Part shown: piece by piece, positions 49,039 through 49,147 of the stretch
Layout of the letters: the number at the start of each line of letters is the position of its first letter
How positions within the stretch are numbered: the stretch's first letter is position 1
The notes under the pieces: model-generated
Told to the model about the DNA's origin: nothing
The model's input: the letters and a program-made list of their open reading frames with translations, nothing else
Database searches by the model: none
DNA from: Planctomycetota bacterium
Lineage (GTDB): Bacteria > Planctomycetota > Phycisphaerae > Phycisphaerales > UBA1924
DNA: 64,000 bases
Direction: 5' to 3'
Assembly (NCBI GenBank): GCA_039819165.1
Contig: JBCBSM010000002.1
Location: forward strand, 233,832-297,831
Program-made: the position numbers and the translations under genes

Positions 49039-49123
49039 GGGCGTGTGCCAGAGTGGACTAATGGGGCGGATTGCAAATCCGTTTGGCGAAAGCCAATCGT
49101 GGGTTCGAATCCCACCGCGCCCT
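49039..49123 (+). tRNA. tRNA-Cys (GCA) with a long, class-II type variable arm
   Basis: 85 nt. Acceptor GGGCGTG/CGCGCCC, D stem CCA/TGG, anticodon stem GCGGA/TCCGT with loop TTGCAAA (anticodon GCA at 49073-49075), variable region TTGGC-GAAA-GCCAA-TC (49083-49098), T arm GTGGG-TTCGAAT-CCCAC. The discriminator is T (U73), the main identity base for cysteinyl-tRNA synthetase, so Cys identity is likely. CCA is not encoded. Ordinary tRNA-Cys has a 4-5 nt variable loop; this one has 16 nt with a perfect 5-bp stem and GNRA-type loop, like tRNA-Ser or -Leu. Confidence 0.9.
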
Positions 49124-49147
49124 CTCCGATCGCCCTTGCGGCTCCCG

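Follow-up and report, generated by a model that had tools for sequence, protein, structure and literature searches.

A tRNA-Cys gene with a long variable arm, apparently the only tRNA-Cys of a Phycisphaerales bacterium, and the repeated change of its structural class among related genomes

According to our analysis, the tRNA gene at positions 49039–49123 of the window (the whole stretch of 64,000 nucleotides analyzed here, from a bacterium of the order Phycisphaerales, phylum Planctomycetota) is very probably the sole working tRNA-Cys of its genome; its sequence features suggest that the long variable arm is tolerated by an ordinary CysRS and that UGY codons are decoded as cysteine. The arm is a lineage trait of the order, yet an unstable one. 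Such an arm on a tRNA-Cys had been called unusual in an earlier note on this DNA, in agreement with the statement that tRNA-Cys is a class I tRNA (PMC4810241). No earlier report of a class-II tRNA-Cys with a 7/5 fold was found in the open literature (subscription papers and tRNA databases were outside the scope of the search), and this form is absent from the passages of published accounts that were examined.

Structure of the tRNA-Cys Gene

The earlier note had placed at these coordinates a complete tRNA-Cys with a GCA anticodon, U73, and a 16-nt variable region holding a 5-bp stem capped by GAAA; ARAGORN, the Rfam tRNA model, and the reading of the gene by segments all bear out this description. 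The parts of the gene are listed below, with position labels (G9, G13, A22, G15) in the standard numbering, as assigned in this analysis.

49039–49123, + strand: tRNA-Cys (GCA), a 7/5 cloverleaf of 85 nt, CCA not encoded (ARAGORN, Rfam tRNA model, segment reading)
49039–49045, + strand: 5' strand of the acceptor stem, GGGCGUG (segment reading, fold)
49046–49065, + strand: positions 8–26 including the D arm, with a 3-bp D stem, G13.A22, G9, and G15
49066–49082, + strand: anticodon arm with the loop UUGCAAA (ARAGORN, segment reading)
49073–49075, + strand: anticodon GCA (ARAGORN)
49083–49098, + strand: long variable region of 16 nt (segment reading, covariation, fold, arm-geometry routine)
49083–49087 paired with 49092–49096, + strand: variable-arm stem of 5 bp, UUGGC/GCCAA
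49088–49091, + strand: variable-arm loop GAAA, followed by a 2-nt linker UC, the C of which is C48
49099–49115, + strand: T arm with a 5-bp stem (Rfam model, segment reading)
49116–49123, + strand: 3' strand of the acceptor stem, CGCGCCC, and the discriminator base, U73 at 49123

Written out by segment, the gene reads GGGCGUG / UGCCAGAGUGGACUAAUGGG / GCGGA / UUGCAAA / UCCGU / UUGGCGAAAGCCAAUC / GUGGGUUCGAAUCCCAC / CGCGCCC / U, where the sixth segment is the variable region and the seventh is the T arm. On the window, ARAGORN called a tRNA-Cys (gca) at 49039–49124. The Rfam tRNA model spans 49039–49123 from end to end with 54.6 bits (E 5.5e-9; gathering score 29), and the additional nucleotides form a variable-region insert relative to this model. 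The acceptor, D, anticodon, variable, and T stems are all present in the minimum-free-energy fold, whose energy of -36.7 kcal/mol corresponds to a z of -2.48; 2 of 200 shuffled sequences were equally stable. A short D stem accompanies an acceptor stem of 7 bp and a T stem of 5 bp without a bulge.

The gene thus has the GCA anticodon, U73, the 7/5 fold, the 20-nt segment of positions 8–26, the order's T and anticodon arms, and the position as the sole tRNA-Cys found in common with ordinary bacterial tRNA-Cys of class I. The difference lies in the variable region, which is a loop of 5–6 nt in the ordinary forms of the order and a region of 12–18 nt with a stem in the long-arm forms. With 16 nt and a 5-bp stem, the window tRNA-Cys falls outside the 4–5 nt by which a class-I variable loop is recognized.

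A Single tRNA-Cys and the Synthetases of the Genome

The genome to which the window belongs (G000; 35 contigs totalling 3.14 Mb, with a completeness given as 100%) gave 46 matches to the Rfam tRNA model, 44 of them good, and the window gene is the only tRNA-Cys among them. No second tRNA-Cys was found in this genome with the Rfam tRNA model, and a pattern covering both the long-arm and the short-loop forms matched one place. The absence of another tRNA-Cys from the window, noticed earlier and reproduced with ARAGORN, therefore holds for the whole genome by the Rfam model. Since no other tRNA-Cys was found, every UGC and UGU codon should be read by the window tRNA, which should not be dispensable; the ordinary second copy that would make it so according to the earlier note was not observed. 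Two weak tRNA matches in the same genome (C1:669291-669354 and C1:592129-592189; L144 and L145) are shortened pieces with Met-like and Ala-like loops.

A single strong CysRS match was obtained in the genome (TIGR00435, 310.6 bits; the next match has 37.5 bits). The cut-off of this model is 340, and 25 of the 61 genomes compared, G000 included, have no match above it. SerRS is likewise represented by a single strong match (370.9 bits; next 26.2). No SepRS match above the cut-off was present in the genome (best 21.3 bits vs. a cut-off of 380.65), and a SepRS-dependent tRNA-Cys was rejected on this basis. No tRNA-Sec was found with RF01852 among the 150 of 610 candidates that were scored; the sole match above the cut-off among these (47.5 bits) was a tRNA-Ser(UGA).

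These results bear on the likeness to tRNA-Sec-like or allo-tRNA forms that was drawn earlier, and on a special role of the tRNA in charging or decoding. Allo-tRNAs have 8/4 or 9/3 acceptor/T stems and a Ser-type identity. The window tRNA resembles them in carrying a long arm outside the Ser, Leu, Tyr, and Sec set, but it has a 7/5 fold and not their longer acceptor stem. tRNA-Sec has a UCA anticodon and long acceptor and D stems, whereas the anticodon here is GCA, the fold is 7/5, and the D stem is short; the match to the tRNA-Sec model RF01852 is weak (40.5 bits) and lies below the cut-off of 47. A further resemblance is to the selC* tRNA-Cys, which combines GCA, U73, and a long variable arm in the same way. 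According to PMC7609411 (on Mukai et al. 2017), however, the selC* forms have an 8/4 fold with a bulged A51a, occur in anaerobes, and are accompanied by selB*/cysS* in some of them. The window tRNA is a 7/5 tRNA without a bulge, its genome yielded no other tRNA-Cys, and no cysS* (second CysRS) was detected there, the next CysRS match being the one of 37.5 bits. A selC*, allo-tRNA, or tRNA-Sec identity was rejected based on the stem lengths and the tRNA-Sec model score, and we consider a special role of this kind extremely improbable.

Distribution of the Long Arm

Among 61 genomes studied by BLAST with the gene, segment reading, and a repeated search by pattern, 24 have the long arm, 36 have the short loop, and one has no tRNA-Cys match. 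At the BLAST step, 24 genomes showed a variable region of 12–18 nt and 31 a loop of 5–6 nt; of the six re-searched by pattern, five show the short spacing, and G024 (92% complete) gave no match. The earlier note had reasoned that the arm would be a known lineage trait if all tRNA-Cys of the clade carried it. The arm does recur among the relatives as a lineage trait, but not all of them carry it.

When the long-arm tRNA-Cys pattern was applied to 392 genomes sampled from the phylum, it matched 13, all belonging to the order of the window. Twelve of these matches are the tRNA-Cys described here, and the thirteenth (L158) is an extra tRNA beside a short-loop tRNA-Cys. A scan of named genomes yielded at least 118 stretches, 94 of which contained a tRNA-Cys by ARAGORN, and 75 long-arm forms were kept for comparison. 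Most of the scanned genomes are titled MAG, so assembly error is possible in single cases. The lineage labels of 71 of the 75 forms are Phycisphaerae, Phycisphaerales, Phycisphaeraceae, Phycisphaera, Algisphaera, or Planctomycetota/Planctomycetes/Planctomycetaceae; the other four are L199, L231, L236, and L263, the last of which, labelled Leptolyngbya sp. PLA1, is taken for a misnamed bin.

Conservation of the Arm and of the tRNA Core

The comparison set comprised 95 distinct tRNA-Cys, 67 with the long arm and 28 with the short loop. The arm stem is kept by covariation, beyond chance, in the sets with variable regions of 14 and 16 nt. In the 20 distinct arms of 14 nt, 59 of 60 cells are paired in the three core pairs, a number reached by none of 1000 shuffles, and standard pair types of three or four kinds occur at each of these pairs; only 10 of the 20 also form a fourth pair, at the arm base. 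For the 13 distinct arms of 16 nt, 47 of 52 cells are paired (0 of 1000 shuffles). The paired cells were not above shuffles in the eight distinct arms of 15 nt (26 of 32; 164 of 1000 shuffles) and in the four of 12 nt (8 of 8; 253 of 1000). GNAA is the sequence of most arm loops.

The discriminator is U73 in 66 of the 67 long-arm forms (the exception is L276) and in all 28 short-loop forms, and G15 together with C48 is found in 95 of 95, long and short alike, as is the length of 20 nt of the 8–26 segment. The minimum-energy fold of one form, L005, is not a cloverleaf.

Arm geometry was determined with one scoring routine for Cys, Ser, Tyr, and Leu arms. In 59 of 67 Cys arms it gave 2–5 bp with 2–3 nt on the 3' side, and other pairings in the remaining eight. 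All eight Ser arms have 6–7 bp and 1 nt on each side, and the five Leu arms of G000 have 5–6 bp with flanks of 0 and 1 nt. The six Tyr arms have 3 bp each, flanked by 1 and 3 nt in two and with a shifted pairing (0 and 1) in four; by eye, GGC/GCC with flanks of 1 and 3 also fits these four. Many Cys arms of 14 nt look like tRNA-Tyr arms. The window arm (5 bp; flanks of 0 and 2) is in this comparison intermediate between the Tyr and Leu types and unlike the Ser type.

Origin of the tRNA Body

By descent, as judged from the sequence comparison, and by its identity elements, the window tRNA is a member of the order's ordinary tRNA-Cys lineage. Outside the variable region, the mean identity of the long-arm bodies is 0.865 to short-loop tRNA-Cys, 0.757 to tRNA-Tyr, 0.683 to tRNA-Ser, and 0.574 to tRNA-Leu, the references for the other isotypes being six tRNA-Tyr and eight each of tRNA-Ser and tRNA-Leu (those of equal length, from a mixed sample). 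For each of the 67 long-arm bodies, the nearest short-loop tRNA-Cys is closer than the nearest of the six tRNA-Tyr.

The class-II tRNA-Tyr of bacteria nevertheless deserves consideration as a source, in the sense that a tRNA-Tyr could have been remoulded (GUA to GCA, A73 to U73) and have replaced the old tRNA-Cys. Its arm stem is short as well (3 bp in 6 of 6), and within the order some Tyr arms, such as TGGCGAAAGCCTAC, are near in their letters to some Cys arms, such as TGGCGAAAGCCTTC; the D arms, moreover, are about equally near to Tyr (0.75) and to short-loop Cys (0.77). On the other hand, tRNA-Tyr differs from the window tRNA in the anticodon, the discriminator base, and the body, and the preference for short-loop Cys given above extends to 67 of 67 bodies. 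The identical bodies of a long-arm and a short-loop gene within one genus, described below, also argue against such a replacement, which we regard as very unlikely; remoulding was rejected for the body by whole-body identity. It is possible that only the arm was acquired from tRNA-Tyr.

The descent from ordinary tRNA-Cys is illustrated within the genus of the window. G002, with a loop of 5 nt, and G006, with an arm of 16 nt, are identical at all 68 other positions compared, and the window tRNA-Cys differs from that of G002 at one body position. Furthermore, G002 and the long-arm genomes G003, G004, and G005 have both 1.5-kb flanks in common (75–79% upstream, 88–90% downstream), while G002 has only the downstream flank in common with G006 and G001 and neither flank with G000. 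From the identical bodies and the common flanks it follows that the arm was gained or lost in place within this genus. The class-I loop is the usual form and not an identity element; it varies within one genus.

Pieces of tRNA-Cys from the anticodon arm to the 3' end were observed apart from the intact gene in three relatives: G045:C20:473-529 (L112) and G057:C7:710-760 (L123), which keep the long arm, and G017:C50:31782-31827 (L122), which has the short loop. Integrating elements can leave such copies. By eye, no integrase was evident among the ORFs listed near the pieces of G045 and G057, and there was no obvious one in the clusters listed downstream of tRNA-Cys, where 85 places were clustered by the longest ORF of at least 150 aa within 2.5 kb. 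Mobile elements as the cause of class switching are a guess.

Changes of Structural Class on the Synthetase Tree

A quick tree based on CysRS and SerRS was built for 59 genomes, 54 of them with an assigned class, after G042 (no usable match) and G059 (a distinct second cysS) had been dropped. At least 12 class changes are required on this tree, and six of them are forced by starred (well-supported) branches. A change count as low as the observed one was reached by 2 of 500 label shuffles. The count was still 12 when four more genomes were classed as short, and the single-gene trees gave 11 (CysRS alone) and 10 (SerRS alone). A tree constrained to keep all long-arm genomes together as a clade is worse by 1297 log-likelihood units and is rejected (p-AU 1.45e-51). 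A single class change is thus excluded, although the exact number is soft, given a quickly built tree of two synthetases. Parsimony as used here cannot separate gains of the arm from losses, and the direction of each switch is inferred.

With regard to the synthetases themselves, G059 has two full-length cysS matches (C31:19755-21251 and C120:1781-3292; 463.7 and 385.9 bits), a state restricted to this genome among the matches listed for the 61 genomes. Extra-long CysRS were observed at G023:C22:108057-110372 (L366) and G025:C45:100314-102395 (L364), with 693 and 611 residues, respectively, within the stretch extracted, compared with about 540 in many others; in these two genes the family match comes in pieces.

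The core of the tRNA shows some relation to the class of the variable region. At positions 9 and 13, 60 of the 67 long-arm tRNA-Cys have G/G and 22 of the 28 short-loop ones have A/A, and the two positions agree with the arm class in 47 of 54 genomes. Over six independent pairs on the tree (starred branches), G9/G13 went with the arm in the same way in 4.2 on average and the opposite way in 0.0 (median p 0.125). This is suggestive of an adjustment of core positions 9 and 13 to the arm, and the arm is accordingly not plainly neutral.

For each synthetase alignment, the 12 column/residue entries with the strongest class bias were followed over six pairs on the tree. The best of the 12 CysRS entries went the same way in 1.5 and the opposite way in 0.3 of six pairs; in SerRS, columns 272 (2.9 vs. 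0.3) and 274 (2.8 vs. 0.4) stood out among the 12, not significantly. Indifference of CysRS to the arm is thus not proven, and a response of SerRS is possible; six pairs can hardly show more.

These data are also relevant to the view that the arm is selected for use, being contacted by the order's CysRS, a modification enzyme, an RNase, or EF-Tu. Such a function would agree with a stem kept by covariation while its sequence changes and with the recurrence of the arm across the order. However, the close relative G002 lacks the arm on a body identical to that of G006, no tested CysRS residue tracks the arm, and the kept fold could also be due to the avoidance of misfolding, all of which makes selection for use unlikely. 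Near neutrality of an arm tolerated by the synthetase, as proposed below, would account for the repeated switching between long arm and short loop in the order.

Predicted Charging and Decoding

We propose that in some members of the order the variable loop grew in place to form a short hairpin, in many cases with a GNAA loop and with 2–3 nt between the stem and the T arm. The lone ordinary CysRS would charge the window tRNA through GCA, U73, and the tRNA core, and the charged tRNA would read UGC and UGU as cysteine only. CysRS is a class-I synthetase. With the exception of TyrRS and TrpRS, class-I synthetases bind the acceptor stem from its minor-groove side (PMC7373986). With CysRS approaching from this side, the arm would stay clear of the synthetase and would thus be tolerated and near neutral; as U73 and GCA are present, the arm should not hinder CysRS.

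U73 and GCA are the major Cys determinants in Escherichia coli and yeast, and the G15-G48 pair is a further strong determinant in E. coli (PMC9976931). The window tRNA-Cys has U73, GCA, and G15-C48; this last pair, common to the order, differs from the G15-G48 of the E. coli tRNA-Cys.

As for SerRS, for which a long variable arm is an important discrimination element (PMC7373986), the presence of such an arm could be taken to permit partial serylation, with UGY read as a mixture of cysteine and serine. The few SerRS columns that lean with the class (at best the 2.9 vs. 0.3 of six pairs) would point in the same direction. The serine tRNAs of G000, however, have G73, a longer arm, and a hinge other than that of the tRNA-Cys, and those of the order carry an arm of 6–7 bp flanked by 1 nt on either side, in contrast to U73, a 5-bp stem, and a 3' linker of 2 nt in the window tRNA. 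An ambiguous identity of the only tRNA-Cys would be expected to do harm as well, and yet the long-arm form occurs in many genomes. Decoding of UGY as a mixture is accordingly highly improbable, and charging by SerRS appears unlikely in view of U73, the GCA anticodon, and the shorter arm with its different hinge; the arm would be too short and its hinge too different for serylation. We infer that CysRS charges the tRNA, that SerRS rejects it, and that the arm is close to neutral.

Implications

A wider reading of our results, which we regard as possible but rather doubtful, is that the structural class of a tRNA is modular and quickly reversible: within this one order, the arm of the only tRNA-Cys would be gained, lost, or exchanged as a unit, with small changes at positions 9 and 13 and with CysRS indifferent to it. 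Exchange of the arm could perhaps proceed through recombination with stray 3' copies of tRNA-Cys such as those in the three relatives. If this reading is true, the class-I rule for tRNA-Cys reflects history and not need. The set of long-arm tRNAs (Ser, Leu, Sec, and bacterial Tyr) is treated as near fixed, and it is drawn on in discussions of how the code originated and of the avoidance of mischarging by SerRS. An apparently sole canonical tRNA-Cys with an arm, together with a sister species whose tRNA is the same save for the arm, makes these ideas directly testable; the long/short pair could be used to examine the arm needs of SerRS, the disregard of the arm by CysRS, and the adaptation of the core. 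The repeated gain or loss of the arm among relatives represents a natural experiment on tRNA identity, and the long-arm tRNA-Cys may serve as natural templates for the design of orthogonal tRNAs. Isotype checks that rely on arm length could misjudge long-arm tRNA-Cys genes.

Other GCA tRNAs With Long Variable Regions

Several further GCA tRNAs were noted in the course of the searches. A second GCA tRNA with U73 and a 17-nt variable region (T GGGCC GAT GGCCC CGC) is found at L158 (1501-1561) and L165 (Phycisphaera sp. RI_212, G048). Its body is unlike the long-arm tRNA-Cys family of the order, and the ordinary short-loop tRNA-Cys of the genome is L121. In L195 (JAIEOW010000202.1), a long-arm and a short-loop tRNA-Cys lie about 260 bases apart on the minus strand (6040 and 6301), and the short-loop copy has a mismatch in the anticodon stem.

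Candidate long-arm GCA tRNAs with U73 were also seen in bins of other phyla (L160, L181, L182, L183, L197, L201, L205, L220, L240, and L255), among them an Armatimonadetes and an Actinomycetota. A pattern for tRNA-Cys of either class matched just that one place in, e.g., G437, G439, and G441, and the short-loop spacing too was present in, e.g., G440 and G442.
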